From the NCBI GenBank assembly GCA_016937155.1, contig JAFGWM010000035.1:1-36068 (forward strand): a stretch of DNA of 36,068 nt, in the 5' to 3' direction. The translations under genes were made by a program, and so were the position numbers. Numbering within the stretch: position 1 is the first letter of the stretch; every line of letters begins with the position of its first letter. Positions 986 through 20,340 of the stretch are shown in pieces. The notes under the pieces were generated by a model that was not told the origin of the DNA, did not search any database, and was given only the letters and a program-made list of their open reading frames with translations. The stretch comes from Deltaproteobacteria bacterium. Lineage in GTDB: Bacteria > Myxococcota_A > Polyangia > HGW-17.

Positions 986-1017
986 TTAGAACCTCCTTTG
1001 GGCGAAACTGAGGGAAT

Positions 1018-1046
1018 ACTATCATTAAAAACGACTAAGTAAACAA
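1018..1046 (-). promoter_or_regulatory. Candidate promoter of the repeat-containing membrane protein
   Basis: Read on the minus strand, a -35-like TTGTTT (1041-1046) is separated by 17 bases from GATAGT (1018-1023). GATAGT matches four of six positions of the sigma-70 -10 box. Transcription would begin near 1011, about 26 bases before the GTG, leaving room for the strong AAAGGAGG site. The call is based on pattern and spacing only. Confidence 0.4.
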
Positions 1047-1582
1047 ATATGTCCAAAAAAATTGGTTGGAGGTGGGGAGGGGGTATAACTTTTCCGGATA
1101 ATGAGATCTTCTGTTAGGACGAAGAATGAAAATTTCAACTCCGAACTAGTTTTGCAAATAAGGAATTCCCTTCTTTGGAAATGACTTTGATGGGGTATGG
1201 CTTAATCAGTATATAAATTGCCGGGCAGTAATGGCGATATTGTTCTGGAAAATAGTAAAAAAATAAAAAAGCTGTGTTTGAAATTACAAAAAAGACAAAA
1301 AAACTGTAGTAAAAATAACTCCTGAAAAATCTCAACAATAATAAGAAGATAAAAAACACAGGGAAAACATGCTGTTTGTCATTGGCAATAATACGAAAAA
1401 CTGGAAAAGAAATATAAAATATACACAGCAAAAAGTTATATGTGCTAAATAAAACAAAAAAAAGATATAAAACTAACATATGTAAGGAATAAATAGTATC
1501 TAATAAATAGAAATAAAAGAAAAAAGTATTGTAAAAAAGTATAGGAACTATATTGTAAACATAATCCATTGAATGGAATATA
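1047..1582. other. AT-rich intergenic stretch with no convincing gene
   Basis: The plus strand is extremely A-rich here. A 150-codon frame is open on the minus strand (1135-1587). Its translation is a Phe/Tyr/Ile-rich string as expected from reading poly-T-rich DNA. It starts at a TTG, has no Shine-Dalgarno sequence, and its first codons overlap the promoter I propose for the next gene. I therefore treat it as non-coding, although a small integral membrane protein cannot be fully excluded. Confidence 0.55.
1064..1083 (+). other. G-run cluster, possible G-quadruplex
   Basis: Within AT-rich DNA there is a compact series of G-runs on the plus strand: GG, GG, GG, GGGG and GGGGG, separated by TT, A, T and A. 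Four or more G-runs with loops of one or two bases fit a two-tetrad quadruplex. It lies about 18 bases upstream of the candidate -35 box of the minus-strand gene at 98-985. Confidence 0.4.
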
Positions 1583-1612
1583 TTCAAACGAATCTCTGGA
1601 AAGAGATATAGT
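1583..1612 (+). promoter_or_regulatory. Candidate MerR-type promoter with a dyad in the spacer
   Basis: A -35-like TTCAAA (1583-1588) and a good -10 box TATAGT (1607-1612) are 18 bases apart. The spacer is almost filled by the inverted repeat ATCTCT-GGAA-AGAGAT (1592-1607). Placing the operator dyad between the -35 and -10 boxes of a long-spacer promoter is the known arrangement for MerR-family regulators, and the next gene encodes a MerR-like protein. A second short dyad, ACAGA-AAAAG-TCTGT, lies at 1625-1639, downstream of the predicted start site. Autoregulation is inferred. Confidence 0.45.
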
Positions 1613-1651
1613 AAAAATATAAAGACAGAAAAAGTCTGTTTGTAATTAAAT

Positions 1652-2164
1652 ATGTCAGATTACCTAGATAGAGATACAGTAGAGAAATATATGCTTGAAT
1701 TTGAGTCAGGAATCACATCATTTGAAGTTATACGTATTTTCAAGGAACACGGTATCCGATTCAGTGAAGCATCTTTGAGGAAATATATTCAGATGGGTTT
1801 GCTTCCACGAAGTCATAGGACCGGAACTGGTGAAAAGGGAAGAAACAGAGGCAGTAGAGGTCTATATCCAGTGAATATCATTAAAAACATCAATGATATT
1901 AAACGAATGCTTGTTGAAGGCCTTACGCTGGATGATATCGTTCGTTCAACTTTGAGGTTCAGAAAAGAGATTCATGGGATAAATCAGGAACTCGAACATC
2001 TTTTTTCAAGTATGAGCTCAGAGGTTTTAAGTGCACATTTTGACAGGGGTCTCAAACCTATTGTCCAGGAAGATTTGAGTACTGCAAAAATAACAGCAAG
2101 AACATTAATAGAACAATTAGAAAATATTGATAGCACACTGACAAATCCAAAACCAACGCTGTAG
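1652..2164 (+). CDS. MerR-like winged-helix transcriptional regulator
   Basis: This 170-residue protein has an N-terminal DNA-binding domain of MerR type. A helix around residues 20-45 is followed by FSEASLRKYIQMGLLP, which resembles the MerR pattern in which an 'LRYYE..GLL'-type helix precedes the wing. A basic Gly/Arg-rich wing follows (about 53-70) and then the Y/I-rich element that precedes the second helix pair. The C-terminal half (about 85-170) is helical and could be the dimerisation coil. I see no metal-binding cysteine set, so the effector is unknown. No Shine-Dalgarno sequence is evident before the ATG. The next gene starts 10 bases after the stop, so the pair is very likely co-transcribed. 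Family assignment is by motif resemblance only. Confidence 0.75.
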   Translation: MSDYLDRDTVEKYMLEFESGITSFEVIRIFKEHGIRFSEASLRKYIQMGLLPRSHRTGTGEKGRNRGSRGLYPVNIIKNINDIKRMLVEGLTLDDIVRSTLRFRKEIHGINQELEHLFSSMSSEVLSAHFDRGLKPIVQEDLSTAKITARTLIEQLENIDSTLTNPKPTL

Positions 2165-2174
2165 GAGAGATGAA

Positions 2175-2720
2175 ATGAGTATCAACAAAGAAGCCAGAAA
2201 AATTTCACGAAAAAGCATAGTCGAAAGAAGAGAAATCAAGGCAAAAAGAAAAGGCGCCCGTCCAAAGACTAAGCTTGCAAAAAGACTGAGTAAAGAAGAA
2301 AAAAAGATGAGTACATATCTGGCCCAGTGGATGGAAGAGGATATGCCAAAATCCAGAGCTGAGTGTTGCTATGGAGTAAGACCCTGTCCATATGTAAGAT
2401 GCAGATATAATCTCTATCTTGAAGTAAAGAAAAATGGAGCGATTAGTGGTAATCATAAATGTGAACCATGGGAAATGGGTGAGAGCTGTGCTCTGGATGT
2501 AGCTGAAAAAGGAAACCACACCCTTGATCAGGTTGGAGATTTCCTGAACCTTACAAGAGAGCGTGTTCGTCAGATTGAAGCTGACGCATTTGAAAAACTC
2601 AGGAACTCCGGGGTTGATATTGATGAATATTTTGAACTGCTTTCGAATTCTTCAAGTCAACTCTATGCATATATGGATTTTATTAAATATGGGGATCACT
2701 CTACAGATATCCAAGGGTGA
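2175..2720 (+). CDS. Small sigma-region-4-like DNA-binding protein with a conserved cysteine segment
   Basis: The 181-residue protein has a Lys/Arg-rich N-terminus (1-45), a cysteine segment and a sigma-70 region 4.2-like helix-turn-helix. The helix-turn-helix (about 115-143) contains LTRERVRQIEADAFEKLR, very close to the housekeeping sigma motif that recognises the -35 box. Regions 2 and 3 are absent, so it cannot act as a complete sigma factor. Cysteines are C64, C65, C71, C76, C96 and C105, within RPCPYVRCRY and ESCALDV. From memory, similar RPCP...CRYHLYLDV...SCALDVA proteins occur in myxobacteria and other deltaproteobacteria; this could not be searched. The cysteines might hold zinc or an Fe-S cluster, which is inference. 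A GGAG lies 7 bases before the ATG. The symporter gene begins 3 bases after the stop. Confidence 0.75.
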   Translation: MSINKEARKISRKSIVERREIKAKRKGARPKTKLAKRLSKEEKKMSTYLAQWMEEDMPKSRAECCYGVRPCPYVRCRYNLYLEVKKNGAISGNHKCEPWEMGESCALDVAEKGNHTLDQVGDFLNLTRERVRQIEADAFEKLRNSGVDIDEYFELLSNSSSQLYAYMDFIKYGDHSTDIQG

Positions 2721-2723
2721 TTT

Positions 2724-4004
2724 TTGATTTACCTGATTCTAGTATTTGCCGGGTTACATCTTCTGGCATTCCGCACAGTTAGCAGTGAAAATGAATTTTT
2801 TCACGGGAATAGTGAGCCCTCCTGGATAAAAACAGGTGCCAGTCTGGCTGTTACTATTCTTGGAGCTAGTGCAGTATTTGGAACGATTACACTGGGATAT
2901 CTGTTCGGAATTTATGGAATTATCTGGATAGTGGCGGGGGCGGCAGGTCTTGCTGTTCTTTCATTATTTATTGGATATATAAAGTATGACGGAAGGACTT
3001 TTCTCAGTTCAAAATCCGGTTACTCAGTATTCAGATATATAAATTCACTGGTTATTCTTTCAGCTTGGACACTGATAATTGCGGTACAATTACAGGTGTG
3101 TTGTGCACTTATTTCCCCATATACAGGCAGTAGTTTTTTTTCCACAGTTCTAATTTTAATAACAGTTGGAACTTATACGGTTTTGGGTGGGCACGGATCT
3201 GTAGTGAAAAGTGATATATTTCAACTTGGCTTCATGATTGTGGCTGTCGGTATGGGACTGATACTGGTTTCAAAATCATCAGGTGGGCTTGAGATTGCCG
3301 GGAAGTTCAATGAATTAACTGAAAAATATTCATTCATTGCTTTTATTCCTGTTATGTTCTCATATCTTATTGGTCCTGACATACACAGCAGGCTCTTACC
3401 CCTGAAACACTCAACGGATAGAAGAAAAGCAATTTATTTCAGTATATTATTGATTATTCCCTTCTCAGTTGCTTTTGCACTTATAGGGTGGTACGCATCC
3501 AACGCCGGTGTAATTGCATCGCCTGAGAAAATACCATTTATTTTGGTAAGCATGGTGCCAGAGTCATTCAGATGGATTGCGGTACTTGGTTTATTGGCTG
3601 CTCTTATATCCAGTATTGATACAACTTTGTTTACCGCGCTCAGTATATCTGTAAATCAGTTTGAAATTTTCTCATTTAACAGGCGAAAATTCTTTTTTAT
3701 TTTCATCATATGTATTTTTTCCGGATACTTCTCATTAAGCAAAATAGATATTATTTCAATGATGATGAGCGCATACAATATTTACATTGGAGTTGCAGGA
3801 GTGGGTATAATGCTGTTTCTCCTTGGAATACTTCCTGAAAAAGAGTGGGTTTCTTCTACGGCCATAACGATTTCTCTGGTGTTGTTTATTTATCTGAAGA
3901 CAACAGGTGTCCAGTTTTTTTATCTCTTTAGCATGATTCCATCTGTTGTAATTTATGGAGTATATTTCATCTATGCAAAATCAGGCAAATTTAGTCAACG
4001 GTAA
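2724..4004 (+). CDS. Sodium/solute symporter, SSS (SLC5) family
   Basis: A 426-residue polytopic membrane protein with roughly a dozen hydrophobic segments. The family look is clear in the GASAVFGTITLGYLFGIYG stretch near the N-terminus, the FMIVAVGMGLILV segment, the SYLIGPDIHSRLL motif and the LGLLAALISSIDTTLFTALS helix. Members import sugars, amino acids, vitamins or anions using the sodium gradient, and the substrate cannot be read from sequence. It is shorter than the usual 450-550 residues. The start is a TTG 3 bases after the upstream stop, preceded by AAGGG, so translation is probably coupled. Its 3' end overlaps the stop of the convergent glmS-like gene by 14 bases. Confidence 0.85.
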   Translation: MIYLILVFAGLHLLAFRTVSSENEFFHGNSEPSWIKTGASLAVTILGASAVFGTITLGYLFGIYGIIWIVAGAAGLAVLSLFIGYIKYDGRTFLSSKSGYSVFRYINSLVILSAWTLIIAVQLQVCCALISPYTGSSFFSTVLILITVGTYTVLGGHGSVVKSDIFQLGFMIVAVGMGLILVSKSSGGLEIAGKFNELTEKYSFIAFIPVMFSYLIGPDIHSRLLPLKHSTDRRKAIYFSILLIIPFSVAFALIGWYASNAGVIASPEKIPFILVSMVPESFRWIAVLGLLAALISSIDTTLFTALSISVNQFEIFSFNRRKFFFIFIICIFSGYFSLSKIDIISMMMSAYNIYIGVAGVGIMLFLLGILPEKEWVSSTAITISLVLFIYLKTTGVQFFYLFSMIPSVVIYGVYFIYAKSGKFSQR

Positions 4005-6630
4005 TGCTTTTGCTTACATTTTTAGGTACATCAGGGTGAACTCCATGATCAGAAATCCCAAGACTATCCAGAAATTCCATTTTTCTTACGCTCATTTCAA
4101 GGGCTAACATCTGAAGCACAACTGTTGTGGTGAAAACGCTTAAAACTGTATCACCAGTTCTTGGAACAGTTATATAGTGCGACCAGTATTTCTTATCATT
4201 TGCCGGGTGCTTTTCTGCTGCGGTGCGAAGGTTCGGATCTTCTTCTGCAATAACAATTGTTGATGAACCACGTATTTTATGTGTGTTTATCTGGCTGATG
4301 GTTAATCGGACATCTCTTTCATCAGGACCTGTAATATATATTAGAGGGTAGGGTATATCCAGATCTCTGGTGGGAATATAATCCTTCAGGGAACTGAGAA
4401 GAATTTCTTCCTCAAGATTTGAAAGCAGAAAAGTATGTTTTTTACCCTCATGAAAATCCATAAGACTTGAAATGATTTTTTTTATTGAATCATAGGAAAC
4501 CGCTCTTTCTTCCGCCAGTTTTATAACTTTTAAAAGAATACTATTATAATCACTCATTAAATGAAGAAAATGATCATATCCGAATACTGTGTTATATCCA
4601 AGAATTGTATTCGGACCATGTTTGAACTCAGCCCCTTCAAACCCTTCAGAATGATTAAGAACCACTTCCCTTATTTTCAATGCTCCTTCTCTTGCAACAG
4701 CATTGATTCTGGTAGCCAGAATCTGAATTGAAGGTGCAAGGTATATGTCAGTTGCTGCATCTCTAACGGGTAAAAGTGCTATACGTGTTGTTTCCTCTAT
4801 GAGTGATGGAATTGTATGAAGTTTCTCGATTCTTGAATCAAGTGAACGCTGTTCCTGTGTAAAATCCGTTTCAGGGTTGTTAGCAGCCTTTTCTTCAATG
4901 GCGTTTTCAGCTGTTGATAGTGCGAGTGTATAAAATACTGTAATCTGATTGATGAAACTTTTTGTGGCGGGAACAGCTATTTCAGGTCCACACCGAAGAG
5001 GAATGATAATGTCACTCTTTTCCTGAGCAATTGTGCTGTTAACGTTATTGACAATGCCAACTGTATGAACCTTGTGGCCGGTTTCGGTTATGTCATTCAG
5101 TATATCTATGAGATCCTTTGTTTCTCCGCTCTGACTTACTGCTATAACTATGTCATTATCTTTAACCGTATTGGAATATCTGCCTCTGAATTCCCCCGGA
5201 AGAATCGGAATAAGTTCAACATGAGCTATTTCATTAAAGAACAGGCACGCAGCCATGGCAGCATGGTAAGATGTGCCACAGGCTGCAAGATAGATATGAT
5301 TCCCTGATTTTTTGGCATTATTTACAAGACCTGAAAACCGATCGGATTCATATTTAAGGTCTTCGCATTCAACTTTTTCAAAAATTGCATCAATAGTCCG
5401 TATTCCCCAGCGATCGGATGAACAATTGCAAAAAGGAAGCAAATCACCTAGTAGCGTGGATTCACCACTGGAAAAAGTCGCTGCAAGGCTCTGATTGCCT
5501 ACTGGCAGTTCTCCAATGGTTTCTCTGTTTTCAAAAACGCGTGAACTCAAAAGATGAAAATCCTCCAGGTTAAAAAAGTCCACCAGAGATGAGCGATTTG
5601 GGAGTGAAAGCATTTCATTGAATTTTGTAATAATTTGTTTTACCAGATTCAAATCCAGAGAATCCCCAAGTATTTTATAAATTTTTCTATTGAGTTCACT
5701 TCCACCCATAAATTTATTGATAACTGCCCTTGCCGTTTCACTCTGAGCAGCAATTTCCTGCTCCATGAAATAAGTGAATTCGGGTTTCAGTAATGTATCA
5801 GTATGTCTTAGTTTTGATCTTACAACTGTTTTTGAAATTTCCGATCCCGACTGAAGAATTACTCCATCTTTTTTTGTTTTTGACAGGGCAGCATATACTT
5901 TGAAATAATCATGGGAAAATTCTATGAATTCACCTTCTGAAAGAGGTACGAGGTTTCTCGTATATCTCAAAATAGACGATAGATCACTGCTTACAAGGTT
6001 GAATTTGCCTTTTTCATCACCGGCAATACCTGCGTATAGACTGCTGCCATTTTTAATTCCCCAGGCTGTCTCAGATACTGGATCAACAACAACAGCCGCA
6101 AAAGAACCCTGGACTCGCATTATTGCGGTGATAATGGCATTTCTCATGGATTCTTTTCTGAATGAGATATCTGAAACATTATGTTTAGCAAGTTCAAGAG
6201 CGAAAAAGTGCTCAACCAGATGAATCAGGATTTCTCCATCGTTGTCAGAGAGAACCTGATGTCCCTCCATTATAAGCCACTGTTTCAACTGCTCAGTGTT
6301 TGTTACATTTCCATTGTGGGCTCCATAAATAAAGGTTTTACACCGGACAATGTGAGGCTGAGCGTTTTTTTCATCGACAGCGCCAAAGGTTGCCCACCTG
6401 ACCTGGCCACAAAATAGTTTTCCCTCCATTGAAGTAATTCCCAGATCTTTTACTAGAAAGGATGGTGCCCCCACTCCCTTTCTAAGATCAACATCAAGTG
6501 AGTCACTCCCCTGAATTGCGGCGCCCGTTGAATCATAACCTCTGTATTCAAGAGCTTTTAAAAGCTCGGAAGCCATTTCCCCCAGATCATTTCGTTGTGA
6601 TTCACTGATAAGCCCTACGACTCCGCACAT
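3991..6630 (-). CDS. glmS: Extended GlmS-type glutamine-fructose-6-phosphate aminotransferase
   Basis: GlmS makes glucosamine-6-phosphate from fructose-6-phosphate and glutamine, the first step toward UDP-GlcNAc for peptidoglycan and LPS. The N-terminal Ntn glutaminase is complete: catalytic C2 after the start Met, ALEYRGYDSTG (26-36), VRWATFG (77-83) and AHNGNV (104-109). The FTYFMEQEI linker (285-293) precedes SIS1, with ACGTSYHA (450-457), SQSGETKD (499-506) and CGPEIAVPATKSF (547-559). SIS2 has EGALKIREVVLNHSEGFEGAEFKHGP (648-673). The C-terminus NVSKSITVD resembles the usual NLAKSVTVE. At 879 residues it is about 270 longer than typical GlmS. About 100 extra residues lie between the linker and SIS1, and about 100 more follow KHGP. 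A related SIS-domain enzyme with another sugar phosphate is possible. GGAGG precedes the ATG. The receiver-XRE gene lies 84 bases upstream. Confidence 0.87.
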   Translation of the reverse strand: MCGVVGLISESQRNDLGEMASELLKALEYRGYDSTGAAIQGSDSLDVDLRKGVGAPSFLVKDLGITSMEGKLFCGQVRWATFGAVDEKNAQPHIVRCKTFIYGAHNGNVTNTEQLKQWLIMEGHQVLSDNDGEILIHLVEHFFALELAKHNVSDISFRKESMRNAIITAIMRVQGSFAAVVVDPVSETAWGIKNGSSLYAGIAGDEKGKFNLVSSDLSSILRYTRNLVPLSEGEFIEFSHDYFKVYAALSKTKKDGVILQSGSEISKTVVRSKLRHTDTLLKPEFTYFMEQEIAAQSETARAVINKFMGGSELNRKIYKILGDSLDLNLVKQIITKFNEMLSLPNRSSLVDFFNLEDFHLLSSRVFENRETIGELPVGNQSLAATFSSGESTLLGDLLPFCNCSSDRWGIRTIDAIFEKVECEDLKYESDRFSGLVNNAKKSGNHIYLAACGTSYHAAMAACLFFNEIAHVELIPILPGEFRGRYSNTVKDNDIVIAVSQSGETKDLIDILNDITETGHKVHTVGIVNNVNSTIAQEKSDIIIPLRCGPEIAVPATKSFINQITVFYTLALSTAENAIEEKAANNPETDFTQEQRSLDSRIEKLHTIPSLIEETTRIALLPVRDAATDIYLAPSIQILATRINAVAREGALKIREVVLNHSEGFEGAEFKHGPNTILGYNTVFGYDHFLHLMSDYNSILLKVIKLAEERAVSYDSIKKIISSLMDFHEGKKHTFLLSNLEEEILLSSLKDYIPTRDLDIPYPLIYITGPDERDVRLTISQINTHKIRGSSTIVIAEEDPNLRTAAEKHPANDKKYWSHYITVPRTGDTVLSVFTTTVVLQMLALEMSVRKMEFLDSLGISDHGVHPDVPKNVSKSITVD

Positions 6631-6714
6631 TGTATACCTCCAGTTTATATTTTTAATCCTGATTGGATAATAAGCATAGAATTAACATTTTTATGAAGAG
6701 AACTCTGGTCTGAA

Positions 6715-7302
6715 CTAAAAAGTTCCGAAGAGATCCTTTATTTTGACACTTAGAGCTGTGGCCATTTTATAAAGAGATGATATCGATGGGCTGCTTTCCC
6801 CTCGTTCAATCTGACTCAGCAAGCTTATTGATAACTGAGTTCTTCTGGCAAACTGCTTCAGAGTAAGTCCTTTTCCTTTTCTCAGGTTTCGTATAGTTTC
6901 CCCAAGGACTTTGTGAAGTTCTGTCTCCCTTTCAAGGAGAAGTCCCTTCTTTTGAGCAATTCGATAAAGTGCAGTTCTGAGTTCTTCAATGCTGAATGGT
7001 TTTTTAATGTAGGCACTCACTCCATGAGCGATAGAATCAGCAGCGCTCTCCACTGATGGATATCCAGTAAGGATTATGACGGCCAGATCCTCATCAAAAT
7101 CGCGAATCTGTTCAAGCAAATCCAGCCCTGTAATTCTGGGCATCATTAAATCCAGAATTACAAGATGATAACCGCTGTTTCGGATATCATCCATTGCATC
7201 TGTCGGATCGCAAAGGGTGTTAACTTCATGGCCTTCCTGTCTAAGAAAGTCAGACAGGAAATCACAAATATCTCTTTCATCGTCAATTACAAGTATATTC
7301 AT
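6715..7302 (-). CDS. Response regulator with XRE-type helix-turn-helix output
   Basis: Residues 1-120 form a canonical receiver: acidic pair D7-D8, phosphoacceptor D51 in VILDLMMP, T79 in ILTGY and K101 in IKKPFS. Residues about 130-195 form a Cro/CI (XRE) DNA-binding domain, LRKGKGLTLKQFARRTQLS then SLLSQIERGESSPSISSLYKMA. Response regulators usually carry OmpR, NarL, Fis or LytTR outputs, so an XRE output is less common. No histidine kinase is encoded in the window, so this is an orphan. The gene lies 84 bases upstream of the glmS-like gene on the same strand and may be co-transcribed with it or control it. No clear Shine-Dalgarno sequence precedes the ATG. Confidence 0.88.
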   Translation of the reverse strand: MNILVIDDERDICDFLSDFLRQEGHEVNTLCDPTDAMDDIRNSGYHLVILDLMMPRITGLDLLEQIRDFDEDLAVIILTGYPSVESAADSIAHGVSAYIKKPFSIEELRTALYRIAQKKGLLLERETELHKVLGETIRNLRKGKGLTLKQFARRTQLSISLLSQIERGESSPSISSLYKMATALSVKIKDLFGTF

Positions 7303-15179: not shown

Positions 15180-15211
15180 CTTGAATGGTGATACCGGAAA
15201 GCAGGATTCCA

Positions 15212-16123
15212 ATGAGCATCAGATTTCAATTCACTGCCCTTGCTCTGATAGTGTTCTTAAGTGCAGGCTGCAGAAATGACAATAAAAAATCCACTCCTTC
15301 TCCATATGGTGAAATTGGTGGCAGATATTCCTATCAGACAACGGTATCTGCGGGAAAGGAAAGAGTAATTATCAGAGAATACTGGAGTATAGTTCCTGAG
15401 AACGATTCTCTGAGTATAGATGTAAAATACTCCAAACTGGGATATACAATTGGTTCTTTCCCATGTAACGGCAGTTCTTCTTACAATGTAAATGTGGACT
15501 ATAAAATTACTGATTTCAAAGTGGTGGGTTCTAAAATTATTATTCTGAAAGCAGAAAAGAAACATACTCCTGGTGCGTGTGATGGCGATATTCCAGATTT
15601 CAGCGGGACAACTGTGGAGCTTCTTCAGGGAAAGAGATTGTTTGTTTCAGGTGGAAAATTGAAGAACAGGCATACACTTTATGAGCATAGCGTTGGTGGA
15701 TCATGGATGTGGACCCGTCAATCAAGAATATCCGGAAGTAATGATTCTAAATATGAAGTTGAGAACTGGTATCTTACTCAAACATCTGAAAACACCATTA
15801 AGGGTTACTACGAACGTACCGAAACAAGACTTAGCGGCGATGGTGAAAAATTTTCGTGTAATGGTGAGACAAGAGTGGTTTTGTTCAGCAGATATTCAGT
15901 TGAAGGCAAAATTACTCCCACCGGCGAAGTAAATCTCAAGGAAACCGGATACACCGTAGCTGGAAATGATCCATGCGAACCTTCCGGAAAACGTTATCTG
16001 GATACTTTTTCGGGTATTCTGGTTGGAAATAAGTTGATAATAAAATCTCCTGAATCCAGTGTTGAGCAGGAGTTGATAAGATCCTTTGGCGATTACAGTC
16101 ACAGGAAGAATGGAAAAAAATAA
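15212..16123 (+). CDS. Lipoprotein with two homologous beta-rich halves
   Basis: I chose the ATG at 15212 because AGGA lies 5 bases before it and a clean type II signal peptide follows; an ATG nine codons upstream is less well placed. The hydrophobic stretch ends in LSAG-C. The mature 280 residues contain two similar units. Each opens with GGxxxYxx or GGSWMWTR and carries a Cys-Asn-Gly (SFPCNGSSSY and KFSCNGETRV). Each has a GYTI or GYTV strand and then a second cysteine (GACDGD and DPCEPS), and ends near a 'G.LxGxxLxI' strand. The paired cysteines probably form one disulfide per unit. No enzyme motif is visible. It overlaps or abuts the adenosine deaminase gene, suggesting a shared transcript. 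Confidence 0.72.
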   Translation: MSIRFQFTALALIVFLSAGCRNDNKKSTPSPYGEIGGRYSYQTTVSAGKERVIIREYWSIVPENDSLSIDVKYSKLGYTIGSFPCNGSSSYNVNVDYKITDFKVVGSKIIILKAEKKHTPGACDGDIPDFSGTTVELLQGKRLFVSGGKLKNRHTLYEHSVGGSWMWTRQSRISGSNDSKYEVENWYLTQTSENTIKGYYERTETRLSGDGEKFSCNGETRVVLFSRYSVEGKITPTGEVNLKETGYTVAGNDPCEPSGKRYLDTFSGILVGNKLIIKSPESSVEQELIRSFGDYSHRKNGKK

Positions 16124-17393: not shown

Positions 17394-17427
17394 GTGCACA
17401 ATTAAACTTCAACTCTGGAGGTTGTGC

Positions 17428-20340
17428 ATGTTTCGCAATGCTATTTTTCTGTTTGTAATAATTGCCGCAATTGGATTCACTGCATGTGATGATGATTCCA
17501 CCAACAGCAATAATTCTAATAATAACACTAACAATTCAACCAACACAACAGGGGACGGCCCTGTAATTTTCAGTGTGATTCCCAATCAGGGTCCTGCTGC
17601 CACAGGAGGTACAGAGGTCGCTGTATATGGAAAGAACTTTGAAGCAGGTGCTCAGGTTTTCTTTGGTGACAATGAGAGTTCAGCCCCGGTGGTTCAATCT
17701 TCCGGTACTATTTTGGCTGTATCACCAGCATCGACAGTGACTGGAGCAGTTGATGTCAGGGTAGTTCAGGAAAATGGTGAGTATACTTTACCGAATGCTT
17801 TTACATATACTGAATCAACTGTGGAAATACCCATCACCTGGTGTATTTTCCAGAGTCCTGCTCAAACCAGTACAGTATCCGGTGTTTCAACCGAACTATT
17901 GTTTGGACGCGTATTTTCTGAAGGAACGACAAATTCTCCCGGGAAGGGCGCAGGAATTTCTGCTCAGGTGGGTTATGGCCCTCAGGGATCAAGTCCTGAA
18001 AGTGATGACTGGGTGTGGGTGAGTGCAACTTACAATATGGATGCAGATGATGGTGCCAACGATGAGTATATGGGAGCGATAACACCTGTAAGCACAGGTG
18101 ATTTTGATATGGCCTTCAGGTTTAATGGTGGTCAGGGATTTGTATACTGTGATATAAACGGTACAGATGACGGATATAACACTGAAAATGCCGCCCTCCT
18201 GACTGTAACGGACCAAACCGAACCAGTCGTGGACTGGTGTATTATGCAGTGGCCCTATTCCTATACTGAAAATGCAACTGAGGCAGGACCAAATGTTTAT
18301 GGTCGAGTTTTTATGGAAGGTGTTACTGATGCTGAAGGACAGGGAAGTGGTATAGCCGGTCAATTGGGATATGGTCCACTGGGAACAGTTCCCGGAGTTG
18401 ATCCCGGATGGCAATGGGTTGATTCGGATTTTCTTGGTGATGTGGATAATGGTGCAAATGATGAATTTCAGACACAGTTGACAATTGCTCAGCCTGGTGA
18501 GTATTCCTACGCATACAGATTCAATGTAAATGATGGTCCATGGCGATACTGTGATGCAAATGGAAGTGACGATGGATATTCTCCGGATCAGGCAGGGACA
18601 GCAACCATAGAGGGCGAAAGCACTGCTACAGTTGACTGGTGTAATCTTCAGTATCCTGCTTCTACAGCAGCACTTGCCGGGAATGATACTGCGAATTTCT
18701 ATGGCAGAGTATATGTTAATGGTGTAACCCAGGGAAATGGCCAGGGTCAGGGAATCTCCGGAATGATTGGTTATGGTCCCGAAGGATCGGATCCTGAGAC
18801 ATCAACTGAGTGGACATGGGTTGATGCAGTCTATAATGTGAGTGTGGATGGCTCCGATGATGGTGACTTATCAAATGATGAATACATGGCATCACTGAAT
18901 GTAACTACTTCAGGAATATACAGTGTTGCTTACAAATTCAGTGCTGATGGAGGAACCAGCTGGACATACTGTGATTTGGACGGTTCAGATAATGGTATTT
19001 CAATTGAAGAACTTGGTGAGCTGGAGATTTATGAAACTCAGCCTGAATATGTTGACTGGTGTATATTCCAGTATCCATATGCAGTTGAGACATTTGCAGG
19101 AGGTACAACTGAAAGCCTTTACGGTCGTGTATTTGTAGCCGGTATTACTGAAGGAGCAGGGCAGGGTCCTTCTATAACTTCACAACTGGGATATGCTGTA
19201 GCAGGAACAGATCCTACAGTACATCCTGAGTCTTTTACATGGATTGATGCGGACTATTTTACAAGTGTAAGTGGAATTAATGATGGTGATCTGGCAAATG
19301 ATGAATATGTTTCAACTGTAACCATTGATTCAACAGGGGTTTTCTCACTGGTTTACCGATTCAGCCGGGATGCAGGGGTTTCATGGACATATTGTGATTA
19401 TGATGGTTCAGGAAACGGTTTTGATATATCCATGCTTCCTGAACTTACAGTTTCAGAGGCTCCAGAATTTTCAGTTCAGAGTGTTTTCCCAGAATACGGA
19501 ACAATTTTGGGGGGAACATCACTTTTAATTACAGGAACAGGATTTACTGACAATGCAACGGTGAAGATTGGATCTGAAGACTGTCTTAATGTAAACGTTG
19601 TAAGTTCCACTGAGATTACCTGTGATACTCCGGTTGGTTCTGATTTCGGTTATCTGGATGTAAATGTCTATGTAGACTGGGGTTTTGAGACTGTTGTAGA
19701 TGGTTTCGCATACAGACCTGTTTTTACTCCAAACGTTGATGGAAATGGATCTGATTGGAACAGTGCTTTTCTTGTAGCCGAAAATTCAGTTACAACTGAT
19801 TGGGGCAGCAGTAATGTGCTCACGTCTATGAACGTGTCTTATGATTCCACAAATCTCTATATTCTTGTGAATGGGGGTGTGGAATCTCAAAATGCATTAA
19901 TGGTCCTTATTGACACCGATTATGGTACCGGGAGTGGTATCAGCGATCTTGGTGTTCTCAATGATACTAACGGTACATTTGATACTGCGGTCTCAGGTTC
20001 ACTTGTTATCGATGATGCCTCTTTTGGTTCTGAATTCGTCGTAGGAAGTATAGGAAATAACACTGTGACAAATGATGTAAGTGACATGTCCGGGCTTCGC
20101 AATTTATCAAATAATGGAAATCTTGGTTGGGATAATGCCACACTTTTATGGGATGGCACCGTAAGTATGGAGATTGCAATACCTTTGGAAACTTTTGAGC
20201 TGGACATTCCTCTTGCAAATTTAGCCTTTGCAGTTGTTATTGGAAGTTCAAGTGGTGATGCTTATTCCAACCAGAGTCTACCGGAAGGTATTTCCTCCGG
20301 AACATTATCTGCAGTTGCAACCCTTGATATTCAGCAGTAA
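17428..20340 (+). CDS. Large lipoprotein: IPT/TIG domains and four WC...YCD modules
   Basis: The ATG at 17428 follows TGGAGG; a TTG two codons earlier is not needed. Residues in this entry are counted from that TTG. The signal peptide ends at FTA-C22, followed by DDD and an Asn/Thr-rich linker (about 25-45), which suggests a surface-exposed anchored protein. Residues 46-131 form an IPT/TIG domain. Four modules of about 130 residues begin near 138, 270, 404 and 544. Each has WC(I/N)xQ at its start, then GRVF or GRVY, a GxGxxI..Q.GYGP-like stretch, a WxWxxA strand, an NDEY or NDEF motif and a final YCD-x2-G-(S/T)-x2-G. A second IPT/TIG domain spans about 683-766. A C-terminal domain (about 770-972, VDGNGSDWN onward) resembles beta-sandwich domains of glucodextranase/DOMON type. 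The paired Cys in each module likely form a disulfide. Function is unknown; ligand binding or adhesion is inference. Confidence 0.85.
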   Translation: MFRNAIFLFVIIAAIGFTACDDDSTNSNNSNNNTNNSTNTTGDGPVIFSVIPNQGPAATGGTEVAVYGKNFEAGAQVFFGDNESSAPVVQSSGTILAVSPASTVTGAVDVRVVQENGEYTLPNAFTYTESTVEIPITWCIFQSPAQTSTVSGVSTELLFGRVFSEGTTNSPGKGAGISAQVGYGPQGSSPESDDWVWVSATYNMDADDGANDEYMGAITPVSTGDFDMAFRFNGGQGFVYCDINGTDDGYNTENAALLTVTDQTEPVVDWCIMQWPYSYTENATEAGPNVYGRVFMEGVTDAEGQGSGIAGQLGYGPLGTVPGVDPGWQWVDSDFLGDVDNGANDEFQTQLTIAQPGEYSYAYRFNVNDGPWRYCDANGSDDGYSPDQAGTATIEGESTATVDWCNLQYPASTAALAGNDTANFYGRVYVNGVTQGNGQGQGISGMIGYGPEGSDPETSTEWTWVDAVYNVSVDGSDDGDLSNDEYMASLNVTTSGIYSVAYKFSADGGTSWTYCDLDGSDNGISIEELGELEIYETQPEYVDWCIFQYPYAVETFAGGTTESLYGRVFVAGITEGAGQGPSITSQLGYAVAGTDPTVHPESFTWIDADYFTSVSGINDGDLANDEYVSTVTIDSTGVFSLVYRFSRDAGVSWTYCDYDGSGNGFDISMLPELTVSEAPEFSVQSVFPEYGTILGGTSLLITGTGFTDNATVKIGSEDCLNVNVVSSTEITCDTPVGSDFGYLDVNVYVDWGFETVVDGFAYRPVFTPNVDGNGSDWNSAFLVAENSVTTDWGSSNVLTSMNVSYDSTNLYILVNGGVESQNALMVLIDTDYGTGSGISDLGVLNDTNGTFDTAVSGSLVIDDASFGSEFVVGSIGNNTVTNDVSDMSGLRNLSNNGNLGWDNATLLWDGTVSMEIAIPLETFELDIPLANLAFAVVIGSSSGDAYSNQSLPEGISSGTLSAVATLDIQQ

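Follow-up and report, generated by a model that had tools for sequence, protein, structure and literature searches.

An uncatalogued module family arrayed in a probable Myxococcota lipoprotein and fused to GH13 amylases in Chloroflexota

Results

The locus

The gene described here lies on the forward strand at 17428..20340 of the window, by which we mean the whole stretch of 36,068 nucleotides that was analyzed. Its reading frame is open from a TTG at 17422 (972 aa); the likely start codon is the ATG at 17428, which gives 970 aa and matches the original prediction. The N terminus (17428..17487, +) reads as a signal peptide and lipobox: judged by eye, a hydrophobic segment is followed by a lipobox-like FTAC-DDD, the cysteine being residue 22 of the TTG frame, and the NCBIfam model PG1828_fam_lipo scores 19.1 bits against residues 6-37, below its cut-off of 50. 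Going by the lipobox, the protein may be displayed on the outer surface. In E. coli, an aspartate after the lipobox cysteine is an inner-membrane retention signal; the window protein has an aspartate at this place, which would point to the periplasm if the E. coli rule holds here.

IPT/TIG domains had been predicted on either side of a repeat array, and both were recovered, PF01833 matching the protein in two stretches (75.1 bits, cut-off 20.9, E 4e-21). The first domain (17560..17805, +, residues 47-128) also holds the best stretch of NF058597 (47-128, E 3.4e-12), and the second (19474..19674, +) contains the best stretch of PF01833 at residues 685-751. Between them lie four modules, at 17833..18216, 18226..18618, 18628..19041 and 19048..19461 (all +). 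The chain ends in a beta domain of about 208 residues (19714..20337, +), possibly CBM9/DOMON-like.

A lipoprotein-like ORF of 312 aa is found upstream, at 15185-16123 (+). This gene and an adenosine-deaminase-like gene, so named by reading the sequence, stand upstream both in the window and in a genome of the same genus, where the counterpart of the 312-aa ORF is 47% identical and again sits beside the adenosine-deaminase-like gene. The pair was not found at six other loci searched, and no polysaccharide gene was recognized beside the window gene. Of ten ORFs in the vicinity of the gene in further relatives, four had Pfam matches (Lcl_C, HEAT, purine synthesis, X-Pro peptidase) and six had none. 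The neighbors of the module gene share no common theme, and the neighborhood is kept in the same genus only.

A real and old array of four units

The proposed array of four modules of about 130 residues is real and not a product of chance: a search with unit 2 retrieved units 1, 3 and 4 at E values between 1e-28 and 6e-26. The WC starts lie at residues 140, 272, 406 and 546, and the cysteines of the YCD ends at residues 243, 377, 517 and 658. Compared with unit 1, the other units show 38-41% identity, and 28 columns are invariant across the four, including W, C, Q and P at the start, then GRV, G and T, followed by GY, W, NDE and G, and finally YCD with two later glycines. Most of the motifs first listed for the units stand, but unit 2 has NDEF where NDEY was given, and unit 4 has GYAV where GYGP was given.

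The orthologue in the same genus is 60% identical over 926 aa. In a FastTree phylogeny of 26 modules, the first units of the window and of genomes G001 (the one of the same genus), G002 and G006 cluster with a support of 0.98 (0.85 when unit 1 of G010 is added), the second units of all five genomes with 0.97, and the fourth units with 0.92 in the four genomes that have four units, G010 having three only. The third units of three genomes cluster as well (0.99), that of G006 being placed elsewhere. Units mostly group by position across the family and the order, and the array is therefore old. At locus L215 of G002, the module ORF (4188-6269, +) ends right after unit 4 and another ORF (6293-7003, +) opens at once; a frameshift or a split gene would explain the break.

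The module is absent from the domain libraries searched

Relatives were collected with the four window units as queries and an 86-sequence module alignment was built; each member was scanned against Pfam and NCBIfam, and the profile was run against PDB sequences. With the whole window protein as query, none of Pfam, NCBIfam and the PDB gave a credible match across the units. No Pfam family touched more than five of the 86 modules, the most frequent being BNR (best E 0.064), and the lowest Pfam E value, 0.0021, came from a single member (BSD2_CRD). No NCBIfam family occurred in two or more members (best E 0.0098). PF02903 (CBM34, Alpha-amylase_N) matched none of the 86 modules at E values up to 1, a level at which 23 Pfam families appeared in all. 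By sequence, the best PDB match of the profile was a deblocking aminopeptidase (E 0.024), which we took as chance. The expectation that no characterized Pfam domain matches the module was thus borne out by the 86-member scan, which held no convincing match.

A description of the module was not found in the available portions of the literature on starch-binding, pullulanase and CBM domains, nor under the module motif strings, and tblastn searches of plasmid records with one module of the window protein and one from Chloroflexota gave no match. We conclude that the module, though its kind of fold is known, represents an uncatalogued family that is absent from the libraries searched.

Spread across phyla

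A scan of the GTDB species genomes, which required one of two peptide patterns (WC start or GRV), gave 50 loci with the module, whose titles include Myxococcota, Bacteroidota, Marinimicrobia, Chloroflexi lineages, Calditrichota, Sumerlaeota, Chlamydiota and Gammaproteobacteria. Counting the window's own genome in both cases, the module is present in 28 of 59 genomes of relatives (E 1e-3) and in 87 of the 188 genomes of a Myxococcota sample (E 1e-5). The counts for Chloroflexota (22/201) and Bacteroidota (17/198) each take in one seed genome known to carry the module. At four loci (L026, L028, L029 and L032), the module is shortened, with the first strand and the two cysteines missing.

Cysteines, acidic loop and calcium

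One cysteine near each end of the unit had suggested a disulfide-closed fold. The pattern scan over-represents the first cysteine; its 50 loci, and those from genomes reached through them, were therefore kept out of the cysteine count, which is confined to the three groups retrieved by profile, after 17 of 119 rows with a gap at either column had been set aside. Both cysteines are present in 53 of 55 Myxococcota modules, the other two having neither (A and A) and none a single one. Chloroflexota modules lack both in 24 cases, those linked to GH13 included, and have both in one, which belongs to an 898-aa ORF (L183) outside the GH13 profile matches. In Bacteroidota, 17 modules have neither, mostly with A...G, none has the second alone, and five have the first alone, one of which may be biased as it could be L211, counted here although it comes from a pattern-scan genome. 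The first cysteine can thus exist unpaired.

In corrected mutual information, each of the two columns has the other as its best partner (their pair ranks 19th of 7750), and the cysteines are gained and lost together, as expected of a disulfide-closed module; the Fisher P value (1e-23) ignores relatedness, which inflates the signal. From this co-variation, a disulfide probably joins the WC of the first strand to the YC near the end in Myxococcota units. The disulfide idea therefore stands as far as the cysteines co-vary as a pair, but not as a defining trait of the family, as Chloroflexota and Bacteroidota show.

The N-D-E-[YF] strand is kept in most modules of the three phyla. The DG/ND motifs had been read as calcium sites, and a calcium-stabilized module, compatible with any role, could be argued from the loop that follows the second cysteine, which is acidic in Myxococcota (D105 in 57/61 modules) and Chloroflexota (23/28). 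However, position 105 is a glycine in 24 of 28 Bacteroidota modules, whose loop is glycine-rich, and no metal-binding family matched the modules in the 86-member Pfam scan. Since the acidic loop gives way to glycine in that phylum, calcium binding has no support as a trait of the family, though it is possible in the window protein. A conserved acidic loop proves no metal, and we regard metal sites in these motifs as unlikely.

Predicted structure and fold comparison

AlphaFold, run on module 3 with the 86-sequence alignment, gave a confident model (mean pLDDT 97.2, pTM 0.90) with ten strands and one helical turn, in which the module is predicted to be an all-beta domain. The highest VIA-align scores went to the N-domain of GlgE (5cim_B, Z 10.1, rmsd 2.8, 103 aligned), to its counterpart in the TVA I-maltohexaose complex (1uh2_A, Z 9.9, rmsd 3.6, 110 aligned) and to a cycloalternan-forming enzyme (5i0d_A, Z 9.5, rmsd 3.7, 103 aligned); unrelated Ig folds came next, ICAM-1 and a PD-1 complex both reaching 8.6. 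The top rows of Foldseek differ, being sulfite oxidase and transglutaminase 3 with TM-scores below 0.5, and a CBM21/beta-cyclodextrin complex (7qm2) stands at rank 22. We read the module as an Ig-like/E-set sandwich whose closest solved relatives may be N-domains of alpha-glucan enzymes, with a small lead in Z over generic Ig folds. The title of Abe et al. 2004 (cited in PMC5571214) refers to domain N of TVA I as a starch-binding domain, and domain N of GlgE contributes to a cyclodextrin site (PMC5076824).

The likeness to GH13-type N-domains thus consists of an all-beta sandwich of similar size and of the best structural scores, at Z about 10. The module differs from them in its two-cysteine pattern, WC start and NDEY strand, in its position, which is C-terminal to the catalytic domain in Chloroflexota amylases or in enzyme-free proteins, and in a sequence similarity that does not exceed that of controls. 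For this comparison, the module profile was aligned by hhalign to ten sets of domains taken from Chloroflexota hosts, the CBM34-like domain and the Chloroflexota module among them, and to TIG. The Chloroflexota module set alone matched (E 1e-49). Homology to CBM34 was rejected at this step: the CBM34-like set (P 0.02) did no better than the TIG control (P 0.03), and so we claim no sequence kinship. The values for CBM20 (P 0.066) and for two X25 sets (P 0.11 and 0.016) complete the comparison.

Host proteins

The 20 Chloroflexota hosts that we annotated were drawn, mostly by best score, from 28 listed matches. Pfam found GH13 (PF00128) in 18 of them, CBM20 in 18, fn3 in 17, X25 in 15 and the CBM34-like Alpha-amylase_N in eight. 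In these amylases the module is present in single copy, C-terminal to the catalytic domain, as in a protein of a Promineifilum assembly (L049) with the order X25, GH13, fn3, module and CBM20. CBM20 and X25 share these polypeptides with the module, but they are separate, recognizable Pfam families, X25 touching one of the 86 modules (E 0.12) and CBM20 none. The module is therefore a discrete unit attached to carbohydrate-active enzymes, as expected of a new CAZy CBM family; for such a family, CAZy requires demonstrated carbohydrate binding.

PF00128 was also confirmed by Pfam in five of five further hosts, which had been pre-selected by a GH13 profile match; the profile was built from 17 of the same Chloroflexota hosts, so that those 17 match by construction. 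Two of the five are Chloroflexota, and the other three come from assemblies with the titles Chlamydiota (L080), Sumerlaeota (L113, in the genome of L083) and 'bacterium 4559-240' (L118, in the genome of L051).

The company of the module is different elsewhere. Among 18 Bacteroidota hosts, taken from 21 module ORFs such that near-duplicates were avoided, 14 end in a T9SS sorting tail, and no glycosidase and no GH13 appears among the 25 of 57 families listed. The 20 Myxococcota hosts carry LTD (8/20) and TIG (7/20), again with no glycosidase and no GH13 among the 25 of 31 families listed. The tie to alpha-glucans is strong in a single phylum and extends to a few assemblies elsewhere; in the window's phylum we saw none. 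One 1636-aa ORF (L045, 1-4908, +) alternates four modules with four Lamin Tail Domains, and four or more modules occur in a 2470-aa ORF of the same genome (G074).

Hosts of this kind bear on the idea that the module is a protein-protein adhesion domain, serving surface contact or the assembly of secreted complexes. T9SS-sorted proteins, LTD proteins, subtilases and C25 peptidases would all suit such a role, and immune-receptor Ig folds are among the next-best VIA matches. Yet there is no conserved partner, neighbor genes not being kept outside the genus, and we regard adhesion as improbable.

The C-terminal domain

The original prediction placed a glucodextranase/DOMON-like domain after the array, and this part found weak support. 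An AlphaFold model of the domain from three sequences was poor (pLDDT 46, pTM 0.57). With this model, Foldseek placed CBM9 (7nwn, 7nwo) at the top, followed by the CBM74 of Sas6 (7uwv), at E values of 2.5e-3 to 0.018. The top rows of VIA include Sas6, CBM9 and subunits of nitrite oxidoreductase and ethylbenzene dehydrogenase, which we take to be DOMON-like, all with Z below 8; glucodextranase is at rank 28 (Z 6.7), level with antibody domains. PF06452 (CBM9_1) scores 14.0 bits (E 0.048), below its cut-off of 23.4, and has no match in the other three sequences. The likeness to CBM9, CBM74 and DOMON-type domains thus concerns the tail only and lies in the top structural rows, against which stand the quality of the model and the Pfam score; a CBM9/DOMON/glucodextranase-like tail is plausible.

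Discussion

The fold of the module is ordinary; what is new is a widespread family missing from the libraries searched. Close to half of the Myxococcota genomes sampled carry the module, as do Chloroflexota amylases, yet it is missed by Pfam and NCBIfam, and large parts of many secreted proteins are consequently annotated as blank. A module profile would fill this gap at once.

As to function, we favor multivalent glycan binding by the window protein, probably of an alpha-glucan such as starch or glycogen, though we would put this at somewhat less than an even chance. The lipid anchor and the TIG domains, as spacers or hinge, would hold the array outside the membrane, each unit would offer a weak glycan site, four sites in series would add up to avidity, and the CBM9/CBM74/DOMON-like domain would cap the chain. 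We infer both the binding and the identity of the sugar from the GH13-type N-domains at the top of the VIA list, the CBM21 complex in the Foldseek list, the fusions to GH13 and CBM20, the CBM9/CBM74 rows of the tail, and the tryptophans at columns 58 and 60, which are kept in Myxococcota, Chloroflexota and Bacteroidota. Against it count the small Z lead (10 versus 8.6), the non-CBM proteins that top Foldseek, the P value of the CBM34-like set, the lack of GH13 among the families listed for Bacteroidota and Myxococcota hosts, the lack of a recognized polysaccharide gene beside the window gene, and a neighborhood that is kept in the same genus only.

Almost as likely is a role as rigid structural spacer, comparable to fn3 or bacterial Ig domains, the four units forming a stalk that separates the lipid anchor from the C-terminal domain. 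In many hosts the surrounding domains are of the fn3, TIG, Big, LTD and cadherin-like types, the module is often in tandem, and its Ig-like sandwich is generic. Bacterial Ig-like, fn3 and IPT/TIG domains are likewise tandem extracellular beta-sandwich modules of long secreted proteins, but the module has no Pfam match to them. Moreover, T33, G47, W58, W60, NDE and R93 (profile columns) are held across phyla, beyond what a bare spacer would need, and a spacer role fits poorly with the single copy in Chloroflexota amylases that also carry CBM20.

The alpha-glucan reading can be extended to the whole family, at a lower level of belief. It is conceivable, though doubtful, that the module is a new alpha-glucan-binding family of several phyla, Cys-free and joined to GH13 in Chloroflexota, disulfide-locked and in tandem on enzyme-free Myxococcota lipoproteins, among which the window protein would serve multivalent glycan capture. 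If so, four new modules and a CBM9/CBM74-like cap would provide starch adherence without an enzyme on the same chain. Glycan binding, if true, would mean a new carbohydrate-binding family and a first testable role for the enzyme-free lipoproteins of uncultured Myxococcota.

The window's genome contains only one other module that we found, at 997-3240 (-) of locus L005 (contig C72), in a 747-aa lipoprotein in which about eight cysteine-rich CGxNDEG-type repeats also follow one another.
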